The position numbers were made by a program, and so were the translations under genes. This document shows, in pieces, positions 11,623 to 15,863 of a stretch of 64,000 bases of DNA. The DNA is taken from NCBI RefSeq assembly GCF_937863485.1, contig NZ_CALMFY010000085.1, forward strand, positions 1 through 64,000. Direction: 5' to 3'. A model generated the notes under the pieces. That model searched no databases. It saw nothing but the letters and a program-made list of their open reading frames with translations, and had not been told where the DNA came from. Within the stretch, counting starts at the first letter, position 1. Each line of letters begins with the position of its first letter. The DNA comes from an uncultured Nostoc sp. GTDB lineage: Bacteria > Cyanobacteriota > Cyanobacteriia > Cyanobacteriales > Nostocaceae.

Positions 11623-12630
11623 CTAATTTTTTCTTTTATTTTTTAAGCGTTTGGGCTTTTTAAAAGATTGGAAGAAGCGATTAATCAAGTTAGAAGATGG
11701 CTTTTTATTAGTCGACGATCGCCCCGTTGGATTTGTGCCATTATCTTTGGTGTTATCAGACAGAGGTATGGCATCCTTTGTTGGGGTTATGCCACTTCCG
11801 TACCTTTTGGCATAAACTTGGGTAAACTCTGCACCGAAGAAAAGAATCTGTGCGGCATAGTTAACCCAAGCTAAAAGCACTACCAGTGAACCAGCTGCAC
11901 CGTAGGTTGAACCAAAACTGCCATTACCTAGATATTGTCCTAATAAAAACCTACCAATAGAGAACAAAAATGAGGTAATAACAGATCCAATAAAAACATC
12001 ATTCCAAGTAATTTTAACATCTGGCAGAACTTTGAAAATTAACCCAAATAGTGCTGTAGTGATCGAAAAAGATAAAACAAAGTTAACTATTCGCCAGAGG
12101 AAATCAATACCGGGTAGGATGTTGCCAAAGTATGCTACTACTGCTGCTAACCCCGTACTAATTACCAGAGAAACTAAAAGTAAAAAGCCAATCCCGATCA
12201 CCATTGCAAAGGACAAAAAGCGTAGGCGAATCATGTTATTTACGCCGCGTCCGGGTTTCGCTTTCACTTCCCAAATCGTGTTGAGGGAATCTTGCAACTC
12301 GGTAAATAAACCAGTAGCACCCACTAGCAGAACTACAACACTAATAATGGAAGCCATCGCTCCTGTTTGTGGTTTGTTAGCATTCTGAATGGCTGTTTGG
12401 ATAAACTGTGCCCCATCTTTACCGACTAAACCTTGAATTTGTCCAACGATTTGACCCCTTGCTGCATCTTCTCCAAATACTACCCCTGCGATCGCAATTA
12501 CAATAATTAACAACGGTGCGATGGAAAAAATGGTGTAATAAGCTAACGCTGCCGCTAACCGTGAAGCTTTATCCTCACTCCATTCTTTGAATGTCTCTTG
12601 TAATAACTTCCAAATCGCCTGTAAATTCAT
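11623..12630 (-). CDS. YihY/BrkB family inner-membrane protein
   Basis: 335 residues. N-terminal WSEDKASRLAAALAYYTIFSIAPLLIIVIAIAG is the signature of the YihY/virulence factor BrkB family; about six membrane helices follow. The TTGLFTELQDSLNTIWEVK and SFGSTYGAAGSLVVLLAWVNYAAQ blocks are also typical. The tail after about residue 285 is hydrophilic, rich in Lys, Asn and Ser, and ends in a basic stretch (KKPKRLKNKRKN). The family was once called RNase BN, which is a mistaken name; the true function is not known. The possible small gene at 12644 lies 13 bases upstream. Confidence 0.92.
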   Translation of the reverse strand: MNLQAIWKLLQETFKEWSEDKASRLAAALAYYTIFSIAPLLIIVIAIAGVVFGEDAARGQIVGQIQGLVGKDGAQFIQTAIQNANKPQTGAMASIISVVVLLVGATGLFTELQDSLNTIWEVKAKPGRGVNNMIRLRFLSFAMVIGIGFLLLVSLVISTGLAAVVAYFGNILPGIDFLWRIVNFVLSFSITTALFGLIFKVLPDVKITWNDVFIGSVITSFLFSIGRFLLGQYLGNGSFGSTYGAAGSLVVLLAWVNYAAQILFFGAEFTQVYAKRYGSGITPTKDAIPLSDNTKDNGTNPTGRSSTNKKPSSNLINRFFQSFKKPKRLKNKRKN

Positions 12631-12643
12631 CCAATCAGTCTCC

Positions 12644-12874
12644 TTAAGGAATGTCGCTTACTTCCTGATATATTTGATACTTATTTCTTAAGTAACGACA
12701 TCCACCCAAGGGAGTTTGTGCAGCGTCCTGGAGGAGGAATTTAGTAGAGTCGATAATTTCCTTGACGGCAATATCTATAAATAATTTGCTTTTTGGTGAC
12801 AATAGGTAGTGCGATCGCTTTAGTATATAAAATGCAGTGAAAGCAATCGCATAATTGCTTAATTGATTAGTCAT
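12644..12874 (-). CDS. Small hypothetical protein
   Basis: 76 codons, not recognised. The product begins MTNQLSNYAIAFTAFYILKR and has one weakly hydrophobic N-terminal stretch followed by a soluble, charged part (VKEIIDSTKFLLQDAAQTP). It would be the first gene of a two-gene unit with the YihY protein, 13 bp downstream, which is the main argument for it. No ribosome site is clear before the ATG. It could be a chance ORF. Confidence 0.4.
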   Translation of the reverse strand: MTNQLSNYAIAFTAFYILKRSHYLLSPKSKLFIDIAVKEIIDSTKFLLQDAAQTPLGGCRYLRNKYQIYQEVSDIP

Positions 12875-13004
12875 TAGTAAGAGCGCTTTTGAAGTGCATA
12901 CCCCGCCTCTTGTAGCGCGGAAAAACTTTCTTATATCAGACTAATTCAAACCACGTTCAAGAGTGAGCGTGGTATCTCAAGGACTAATGACCAAGGACTA
13001 AGCG

Positions 13005-13042
13005 CAAAGTTCTGAGCAGAGGAAACCTCTGCTCAGACTTTG
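13005..13042. repeat. Strong stem-loop
   Basis: TCTGAGCAGAGG (13011-13022), loop AAA, CCTCTGCTCAGA (13026-13037), extended by CAAAGT/ACTTTG with a one-base bulge. It lies downstream of the rhodopsin gene and could be its 3' mRNA stem, although there is no T-run for a classical terminator. Confidence 0.7.
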
Positions 13043-13155
13043 TAAGAATTACTAATGACTCCACGCAACGGTTTGATTCCCCTAATATCGTTTCGCTAAA
13101 ATTCGGGATTTCTTCATCGGTTAGCTATCTATTGCATCGGACTGAAAATTTATAC

Positions 13156-13857
13156 TTACTCATATAACGGTTCCGATTGAATAACCGATTCTCCTGCCTC
13201 TTCTAAATTACGTAGGGTGTTTAATGATAGAAAACCAAACCCGACTTTAGAGGCAATATCTAGTAGCGTATAACCCATTGTTTCCCCACCTTGACCAAGA
13301 GCGTTAAACCCTTCTGGACTAAGAATCCACACAATTGGATAGAGTGTCCACAGTACCAGATGCACAGTCACCAGCTTACGGAATGCTTGCTTGGATCTGG
13401 GATGTTTGCGTTCTGCCTCAATCCGGTAGGGCTTCACTAATAAATAGAAAACCGCGACGTAAGCACCACAACTCACAATATACCAGATGTAGCTGATCGG
13501 CTTAGGTGTGACTGTGGCAAGGAAGCCAGTGGCAAGCATATAGGCGTTTGCTCCTAATAAGCTACTTGTAATCAGCAGGCTCGTTCTTCCCAAGAAAGTC
13601 AGATCCAACAACAACAGCGGCGTTGAGCAAAACCAAGTGACAAATCGCACCCAATAAGTTGGACGATCATTGATGATGTTAACTCCTTGACCGAATGCCA
13701 TTGCTAAGTACAGCCCACTGGCAATCAAGCAAATGAAAAAATTAAGTGTATACAGTATTTTCCAGCGTTCATTTTTACCATTGTGTGCGCCTACTCCGAA
13801 AAAAGCACAACCTAGTGCCATACTGATGACACCAATCCACAGCCAAGTTTGAACCAT
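13156..13857 (-). CDS. Microbial rhodopsin, TSD-type (cyanobacterial halorhodopsin-like anion pump)
   Basis: 233 residues, seven helices. Retinal-binding Lys204 is in helix G (DIASKVGFG), with Asp200 one turn before it. Helix C reads R71-F-V-T74-W-F-C-S78-T-P and then D85, so the three positions that define ion choice (Asp85, Thr89, Asp96 in bacteriorhodopsin) are Thr, Ser, Asp. The missing Schiff-base proton acceptor rules out an outward proton pump of the usual kind. The TSD motif with this numbering is that of the cyanobacterial halorhodopsins MrHR (Mastigocladopsis) and SyHR (Synechocystis PCC 7509), inward chloride pumps, the latter also moving sulfate. It differs from Anabaena sensory rhodopsin. 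The helix F Trp/Tyr-Pro segment (LWTLYPIVW) is present. No retinal-forming dioxygenase is adjacent. Chloride pumping is inferred from the motif. Confidence 0.93.
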   Translation of the reverse strand: MVQTWLWIGVISMALGCAFFGVGAHNGKNERWKILYTLNFFICLIASGLYLAMAFGQGVNIINDRPTYWVRFVTWFCSTPLLLLDLTFLGRTSLLITSSLLGANAYMLATGFLATVTPKPISYIWYIVSCGAYVAVFYLLVKPYRIEAERKHPRSKQAFRKLVTVHLVLWTLYPIVWILSPEGFNALGQGGETMGYTLLDIASKVGFGFLSLNTLRNLEEAGESVIQSEPLYE

Positions 13858-14139
13858 AAGTATTTTCCAGCTTTTTGATAACTATTAATAACAAATGGTT
13901 AAGTATAACTTTCACTAGTTAACCTTATTTGTTTTTGCTTGCCTATAAACTATTATTTATACTTCTTATTATGCCAGTTTTAATAATAAACAAAATGTTT
14001 CTTAATGGGGATTTTAGATTAATAAAAAATCTGTAAAAATCTGATTTAAGTACAATCAAAAATTCAACTTTAGTAGTTTGCACTTTAGTACACCACAAGC
14101 AGTCTTCTCTCTAGGGTAAGACTCATATAGAATATGAAC
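13858..14139. other. Upstream region of the rhodopsin gene
   Basis: AT-rich spacer carrying the rhodopsin promoter. No clear operator palindrome. Short ORFs here have no coding character. Confidence 0.4.
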
Positions 14140-14333
14140 TGAAAATTTGGTATTGCTGAATCTAAGTATGAAATTCAAAAATTCTATAGGACTCATAAGG
14201 GAGACGCTCTTGCTAGCTAGCTTCTCCGTAGGAGTACAAGTCGGGAAACCCGCTGTTAGCACCTGGCTCAACTTTTCGCTGCGTCTGGAGAGTGAGGCTA
14301 ATTCATACTTTGATTCAGCAATGCCGAAAATTT
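14140..14333. repeat. MITE-like element ending at the comM stop codon
   Basis: Imperfect terminal inverted repeats of about 25-30 bp: ATTGCTGAATCTAAGTATGAA at about 14152-14172, and the reverse complement of ATTGCTGAATCAAAGTATGAA at about 14302-14322, each with an AAAATTT block on its outer side. The ~130 bp between includes GCTCTTGCTAGCTAGCTTC, a motif often seen in Nostoc dispersed repeats. The right end abuts the comM stop codon (14334-14336). Confidence 0.6.
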
Positions 14334-15863
14334 TTACTGCATCCTATCTATCGTGCGATATTGAATCGCTTCCGCTACATGATTGGTTTTTAGCTCATCG
14401 TCTCCCGCTAAATCTGCAATAGTCCGTCCTACTTTGAGAATGCGATCGCTTGCTCTTGCCGATAAACCTAATTTTCTAATTGCTACTTCTAATAAACTGC
14501 GGCTAGCATCATCTAGCTTGCACCATTTCTGAAGATGACGACTTTGCATGTGGGCATTGCAACGCAGATTTGGTTCTTCTTGGAAGCGGGTAATTGCGCG
14601 ATCGCTTGCTTGTTGAACCCGTTCCCGTACTGATGTTGATGCTTCTCCCGTAAGTTGTTGGGTAATTTCTTCTGGTTTTAAGCGATTCACTGCAACTTGT
14701 AAATCAATTCGATCCATCAACGGTCCAGAAAGTTTTGCCCAATATTGCTCGCGCTGGCGGGGAGAACAAGTACATTGTTGGATGGTATCGCCATAATAAC
14801 CGCATGGACAGGGATTAGTACTCGCTACCAAAGTAAACTGCGCGGGAAACGTTACCGATAGTTTGGTGCGGGAAATCGTGACATAGCCATCTTCCAAAGG
14901 TTGACGCAGAAATTCTAAAACATCACGTTTAAACTCCGTAAGTTCATCAAGAAAAAGTACACCTCTGTGAGATAATGAGATTTCCCCAGGACGAGGGAAG
15001 CTCCCACCACCCACAAGAGAAGGCCCGGATGCTGAGTGGTGGGGGCTGCGAAAAGGGCGATCGCGTACCAACGAACCGCGATTTTTCAATAAACCAGCCA
15101 CCGAATGGATGCGAGTCACTTCTAAAGATTCGGCAAAACTCAGGGGTGGCAAAATTCCTGGTAAGCGCCTTGCTAACATAGTTTTCCCACTACCAGGCGG
15201 GCCGACAAAGATTAAATTATGCCCGCCAGCAGCAGCAATTTCTAAAGCACGACGCGCATGAGCCTGTCCTTTCACATCATGCAAATCTGCGCCAGGGTAG
15301 GATACTGTTGCTATCTCCGTTGTGCCATCTATCTGCACAGGTTTGTAACGCCCCGGATTATTTAAAAAATCCACCACATCAGACAGATGTTTGCAGCCGT
15401 AAACAGCCAAATCTTGAACCACTGCGGCTTCTTGGGCATTATCAGCAGGGATAACTAAACCTGCAATTCCCATTTTTTGGGCAGCTGCTGCGATCGGTAA
15501 GACACCAGCCACCGGACGCAAACTGCCATCTAGAGAGACTTCGCCCAAGAATAGATAATCCCCCAACAAATCAGCGCTAACTTGCTCAGAAGCCGCCAAA
15601 ATTCCCACACTAATAGGCAAATCGAAACAGGGGCCTTCTTTCCGTAAATCAGCCGGAGTTAAATTGATTACAATTTTTCGCATGGGAAAGGCGAAACCTG
15701 CATTCTTCAACGTTGCTTTGACTCTTTCTCTTGATTCTTGAATCGCTGAATCTGGCAGTCCCAAGACAACAATTCCCGGTAATCCCCCTGACACATCGAC
15801 TTCCACCCCTACTTTGACGGCATCGATGCCCACAATTGATGCACTCCAGACTCTGGCAAGCAT
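14334..15863 (-). CDS. comM: YifB/ComM family Mg-chelatase-like AAA+ ATPase
   Basis: 509 residues. N-terminal ChlI-like/Lon-S5 fold domain (VDVSGGLPGIVVLGLPDSA, residues ~1-125), a central AAA+ module with Walker A GPPGSGKTML, and Walker B VLFLDELTEF. A Cys cluster follows (NPCPCGYYGD ... CTCSPRQ), with the C-terminal helical domain after it. In naturally competent bacteria ComM is a hexameric helicase that promotes branch migration of incoming DNA; in Nostoc this role is presumed. Not a chlorophyll-synthesis subunit despite the domain name. Length is typical. Confidence 0.93.
   Translation of the reverse strand: MLARVWSASIVGIDAVKVGVEVDVSGGLPGIVVLGLPDSAIQESRERVKATLKNAGFAFPMRKIVINLTPADLRKEGPCFDLPISVGILAASEQVSADLLGDYLFLGEVSLDGSLRPVAGVLPIAAAAQKMGIAGLVIPADNAQEAAVVQDLAVYGCKHLSDVVDFLNNPGRYKPVQIDGTTEIATVSYPGADLHDVKGQAHARRALEIAAAGGHNLIFVGPPGSGKTMLARRLPGILPPLSFAESLEVTRIHSVAGLLKNRGSLVRDRPFRSPHHSASGPSLVGGGSFPRPGEISLSHRGVLFLDELTEFKRDVLEFLRQPLEDGYVTISRTKLSVTFPAQFTLVASTNPCPCGYYGDTIQQCTCSPRQREQYWAKLSGPLMDRIDLQVAVNRLKPEEITQQLTGEASTSVRERVQQASDRAITRFQEEPNLRCNAHMQSRHLQKWCKLDDASRSLLEVAIRKLGLSARASDRILKVGRTIADLAGDDELKTNHVAEAIQYRTIDRMQ

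Follow-up and report, generated by a model that had tools for sequence, protein, structure and literature searches.

An MrHR-type cyanobacterial halorhodopsin, predicted to pump chloride, between comM and yihY in an uncultured Nostoc

The stretch of 64,000 nucleotides analysed here (the window), from an uncultured Nostoc, encodes a rhodopsin that we read, with a probability of about 0.92, as a light-driven inward pump for chloride, and probably also for bromide, of the sub-clade of the characterised pump MrHR. The first-pass annotation of this DNA had proposed from the TSD motif of helix C an inward light-driven chloride pump like MrHR, and this proposal is now supported by identity, by the key residues and by a tree. 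At the entry-gate positions 63, 118 and 182 the protein has the residues of MrHR, so that the transport of sulfate, suggested as an option by the same annotation, becomes unlikely.

Materials and methods

Named genomes supplied relatives at 27 loci; further ones came from 388 order genomes, 53 genus genomes and 2 Halorubrum genomes. The alignment holds 69 distinct rows, 5 of them PDB references, after the exclusion of 15 identical and 6 short proteins; the tree was built on 57 rows, 12 xenorhodopsins having been thinned out.

Results

The gene (Table 1) lies on the minus strand, a point absent from the first-pass annotation, starts with ATG and contains no internal stop; Lys204 and the helix C residues Thr74, Ser78 and Asp85 are each found where that annotation had placed them, and Asp200 occupies the counterion position of helix G. 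Residues 2-217 match Pfam PF01036 (Bac_rhodopsin) at 4.7e-53, with 180.4 bits for a cut-off of 24.6, which together with Lys204 puts the protein in the seven-helix bacteriorhodopsin-like class with a Schiff-base lysine; a search of NCBIfam with the protein assigned no family. It is the sole PF01036 match in its own assembly (7.5 Mb, 250 contigs, 99.67% complete). Compared with its relatives, the gene gives NG86 dN/dS values of 0.05-0.13 in 10 of 11 comparisons, the last one (L014) yielding no dS. Such low values rule out a chance frame, and indicate that the protein is maintained by purifying selection. The palindrome located 3' of the gene is not listed by the terminator scan. Upstream, a scan for sigma-70-like promoters, which performed no better than shuffled sequence, returned nothing on the rhodopsin strand and one site on the plus strand, for 3.9 expected from shuffles.

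Table 1. Position of the rhodopsin gene, of its key codons and of its surroundings in the window
Feature	Coordinates	Strand	Basis
MrHR-type cyanobacterial halorhodopsin gene, 233 aa	13156..13857	-	ORF, Pfam, PDB matches, tree
Helix C codons 74-85, TSD motif Thr74/Ser78/Asp85	13603..13638	-	residue check, alignment
His166 codon, clade-characteristic histidine (PMC9617919)	13360..13362	-	His in 30/30 CyHR rows
Glu182 codon, entry-gate residue blocking sulfate in MrHR	13312..13314	-	residue check, PMC9525653
Lys204 codon, retinal Schiff-base lysine	13246..13248	-	residue check, alignment
Palindrome 3' of the rhodopsin gene, possible hairpin	13005..13042	.	
Upstream neighbour comM (YifB/ComM, Mg-chelatase-like ATPase), intact	14334..15863	-	
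Downstream neighbour yihY, YihY/BrkB-family membrane protein	11623..12630	-	
Block of ~1.6 kb with the rhodopsin gene, absent between comM and yihY in relatives	12747..14330 (approximate)	.	DNA matches

The best PDB matches are MrHR (6k6i, 6xl3; 6e-126) and SyHR (7zou; 2.3e-104), followed by a cyanorhodopsin (1.7e-49). MrHR, of Mastigocladopsis repens, is identical to the Nostoc rhodopsin at 187 of 225 residues (83%), and both have the TSD motif, Asn63, Pro118, His166, Glu182, Glu192, Asp200 and Lys204; they differ by their host and by 38 substitutions, including G64D, adjacent to the entry gate, and I136V, at a position that PMC9617919 locates by the cytoplasmic cavity. Asp64 is carried by the Nostoc group, and altogether by 15 of the 30 rows of cyanobacterial halorhodopsins (CyHR) in our set. 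SyHR, of Synechocystis sp. PCC 7509, has 155 of 227 residues in common with the Nostoc rhodopsin (68%), including the TSD motif, His167 and Lys205, but belongs to another sub-clade. The cyanorhodopsins (CyR; 6lm0, 6lm1), cyanobacterial as well, are described as outward proton pumps (PMC7541481) and placed with CyHR in one wider family (PMC11528372); their identity to the Nostoc rhodopsin is only ~36%, and they bear Asp at 74, Thr at 78 and Leu at 166 in place of Thr74, Ser78 and His166.

In the tree, a clade of 30 CyHR rows (100/99) contains the Nostoc rhodopsin, MrHR and SyHR. The Nostoc rhodopsin falls there in a set of 20 rows (97/92) and, within it, in the MrHR sub-clade of 18 rows (100/97), its closest rows being other Nostoc. 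Outside stand the ASR set (9 rows, 100/100), the cyanorhodopsins (6 rows, 100/99) and a set of rows that their motifs label as Na+-pump-like and H+-pump-like (6 rows, 100/100), while the two Halorubrum rhodopsins (L116 and L117, with TSS and TSA, called HR by motif only) are also apart. As long outgroup branches meet in this tree, we draw nothing from its deep forks. This one tree rejects a place for the protein among the sensory, proton-pumping, archaeal, Na+-pumping or xanthorhodopsin-like rhodopsins; the clustering with sensory or proton-pumping rhodopsins, which the first-pass annotation took as the sign of a wrong reading, does not appear. Residues also separate the protein from two of these groups: Asp200 stands where ASR has Pro, and Asp85, which archaeal halorhodopsins lack, is present.

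CyHR are defined by a TSD motif, or by its variants TSV, TSL or TSI, in helix C (PMC9617919), and the Nostoc rhodopsin has Thr74, Ser78 and Asp85. It also has the helix F histidine (166/167), which all 30 CyHR rows share and which every other row listed lacks. Besides this histidine, Thr74, Glu192, Asp200 and Lys204 are invariant in the 30 rows and present here; Ser78 is found in 29 of them and Asp85 in 27. The protein is an ordinary added member of the described CyHR family, close to MrHR.

A function as a light sensor or as a proton pump, instead of an anion pump, is extremely improbable. Certainly Asp85 occupies the position of the bacteriorhodopsin proton donor, a single T74D change converts MrHR to a proton pump (PMC9617919), and the order is rich in ASR-type sensory rhodopsins (L033-L055 are mostly ASR-like); on the other hand the proton-acceptor position 74 is a Thr and not an Asp, the tree sets the protein apart from ASR and from cyanorhodopsins, and the gene is flanked by comM and yihY, nothing resembling a transducer gene having been noticed among the adjoining genes.

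The surroundings of the gene are shared by its closest relatives. Eight loci from named Nostoc belong to its group (L002-L008, L012), and in all eight rhodopsin is followed by yihY and purB; on the upstream side five of them have a full comM and L008 has copies of the comM 3' end, and no comM was found near rhodopsin in the locus DNA examined of L005 and L006. The order comM-rhodopsin-yihY-purB recurs in the genus genomes G265, G240 and G415, and around a rhodopsin remnant in G388. None of comM, yihY and purB gave a match in the locus DNA examined at the 17 loci from more distant cyanobacteria (L009-L011, L013-L026). Among 28 relatives devoid of CyHR, no rhodopsin match was found downstream of comM, and yihY was present in 25. 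The DNA match on the yihY side starts within one 6-bp stretch in 22 of these 28; G423 and G382 retain slightly more of the block, and the remaining four have no match on that side. In 5 of the 28 the gap between the comM match and the yihY-side match measures 5 bp or less. These shared limits indicate that the ~1.6-kb block carrying rhodopsin is either present or absent.

A comM tree covering 30 of the 53 genus genomes requires seven changes of rhodopsin presence (the remnant being counted as present), at least three of them forced by starred branches, and presence is weakly clustered on it, 48 of 500 shuffles giving an equally low number. In G265, G240 and G415 the interval from comM to rhodopsin contains copies of the comM 3' end, and in G388 it contains a 39-bp match; such copies also occur downstream of comM in G402 and G421, and as a short one in G412, all three devoid of rhodopsin. 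As no such copy exists on the yihY side of the window, the view of rhodopsin as the cargo of an island is unsupported there. One arrival in the junction followed by repeated loss seems the likelier history; an exchange of rhodopsin between strains by recombination is possible.

At five loci (L149, L150, L151, L132, L152) the last 110-140 bp of comM are repeated 0.7-8.3 kb downstream of an intact comM. This pattern, seen whether or not the genome carries rhodopsin, would fit an integration site at the comM 3' end. One insert of 10 kb downstream of comM encodes an AAA-WD40-repeat protein of 1584 aa. In several genus genomes comM is interrupted by elements 2.6-16 kb long (L153-L156, in G391, G390, G418 and G397 respectively); the two that were searched for families, L153 and L154, encode two or three phage-integrase-family proteins and a DUF6262 protein, an arrangement which we take to resemble that of Tn554. 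In the window, the gap between comM and rhodopsin contains at 14192-14251 a repeat of ~60 bp with dozens of copies in the genome; a 216-bp query for it gave 43 genome matches, counting itself and its own inverted arms. The main text of PMC4874684, which surveys, for heterocyst formers, elements of the kind that split comM in these genomes, contains neither the word "comM" nor "chelatase".

Rhodopsins of any type are found above the cut-off in 46 of the 388 order genomes. A match occurs in 13 of the 53 genus genomes; 11 of them carry an intact CyHR with at least 94% identity (that of the window included), G388 has the remnant, and G410 an unclassified rhodopsin with a stop and 29% identity. Most genomes of the genus live without the gene, so it is dispensable. 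One could then imagine a gene on its way out, unused, at a site that gains and loses DNA: it is patchy in the genus, the junction is empty in relatives, and copies are broken in G388, L024, L025 and L026. Against this, the frame is intact, every key residue is kept and dN/dS is low, so that we give this view hardly any credit and retain the reading as a pump. The broken appearance of three of these CyHRs could in each case be an assembly error: matches in overlapping frames in L024 (a Scytonema hyalinum MAG), three pieces over 3.6 kb in L025 (Scytonema sp. NIES-4073), and the absence of residues 26-100 in L026 (Iningainema tapete). Besides, Nostoc sp. 106C (L009) has a CyHR 85% identical to the query and is listed in PMC7541481 with a DTE-type cyanorhodopsin; this strain may have a chloride pump together with a proton pump.

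A retinal-making gene had been reported missing from the vicinity, and indeed the carotenoid oxygenases of the genome, three full genes and one fragment, are on contigs C98, C20, C117 and C91, all off the window contig (C85). The genome-wide search for such an oxygenase that the first-pass annotation had called for gives a good candidate on C20: it matches the apocarotenoid-15,15'-oxygenase of Synechocystis (ACO, 2biw) with 657 bits over 483 residues, the other two full oxygenases scoring ~200 bits each; that of C98 has a better match in a carotenoid 9,10-dioxygenase (398 bits). Given that PMC7541481 records diox1, the carotenoid oxygenase for retinal, from 152 of 154 genomes of cyanobacteria, and given the ACO homologue of C20, the missing linkage is no objection, and retinal probably comes from this homologue. 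A search for a Blh-type oxygenase (PF15461) in the genome gave no match, but neither did its 14 controls, so that such a gene may be present all the same. The C91 fragment (L032; 64 aa), close to a series of short peptide-like repeats, is likely a gene relict.

Discussion

The literature we searched yielded, within the reach of those searches, no studied chloride-pump rhodopsin of Nostoc, and only two members of the CyHR family had been characterised by 2022 (PMC9617919). Chloride binding, direction, photocycle and selectivity are presumed here after these characterised homologues. With chloride an absorption near 537 nm would be expected, after MrHR (PMC9617919). In SyHR, T74 and S78 hold chloride near the Schiff base, and the anion is proposed to be released past a histidine peculiar to the clade (PMC9617919); all three residues are present in the Nostoc rhodopsin, which strongly favours, by inference, an inward chloride pump. 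All-trans retinal, probably produced through the unlinked C20 oxygenase, would be attached to Lys204, and chloride would sit beside the protonated Schiff base, kept by Thr74 and Ser78. Light would isomerise the retinal and the anion would move to the cytoplasmic side by a path along His166; the next chloride would then enter through the gate Asn63/Pro118/Glu182 and Arg71.

The gate is also what bears on sulfate. MrHR pumps chloride and bromide, and SyHR moves sulfate too (PMC9525653). The same source assigns the key role to Glu182, which corresponds to Thr183 in SyHR: the relative sulfate pumping is 0.008 for wild-type MrHR and 0.092 for its E182T mutant, and conversely T183E or T183D lowers that of SyHR. 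Another group found N63A/P118A effective, which PMC9525653 failed to reproduce, so that the role of positions 63 and 118 is disputed. The Nostoc rhodopsin has Asn63, Pro118 and Glu182 like MrHR, whereas SyHR has Ala63, Ala118 and Thr183; it does not belong to the SyHR-type sulfate-pumping class, which has a non-acidic residue at 182/183 and small ones at 63 and 118. As all three residues are MrHR-like, sulfate is unlikely under the account of either group, and the "or sulfate" of the first-pass annotation is unsupported. That the protein would pump sulfate besides chloride, as SyHR does, might be argued from the common TSD motif, from the overall identity to SyHR and from Glu192, a part of the initial sulfate sites of SyHR (PMC11995866); but MrHR has Glu192 too, needs E182T for a clear sulfate pumping, and the Nostoc rhodopsin lies inside the Glu182 sub-clade of 20 rows. 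We consider SyHR-like pumping very unlikely, and predict from these residues that the Nostoc rhodopsin moves chloride and hardly any sulfate.

Position 182 deserves attention in the whole family. Of the 30 CyHR rows, 20 have Glu there, 9 Thr and 1 (L017) Ser, and the cyanorhodopsin outgroup has mostly Glu as well. The nine Thr rows include L018, L019, L020 and L112, and also SyHR and L059, these last two separated from each other by a zero branch length. The gate residue of SyHR is not unique to it, in contradiction with PMC9617919, which states that this Thr is unique. We tentatively suggest, at rather less than even odds, that the gate splits the CyHR: the Glu182 sub-clade of 20 rows would be restricted to halides, sulfate-capable pumping would perhaps be widespread among the ten rows without an acidic residue there and not peculiar to SyHR, and Glu182 would act as a filter on the MrHR side. 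The natural Thr-gate proteins offer test material for what determines the choice between sulfate and chloride.

The protein adds to a family with few characterised members a well supported, predicted chloride pump of MrHR type from a Nostoc-like filament whose genome also holds a candidate source of retinal. Its patchiness within one genus provides pairs with and without the gene, in which the benefit of such a pump to a photosynthetic filament may be studied.
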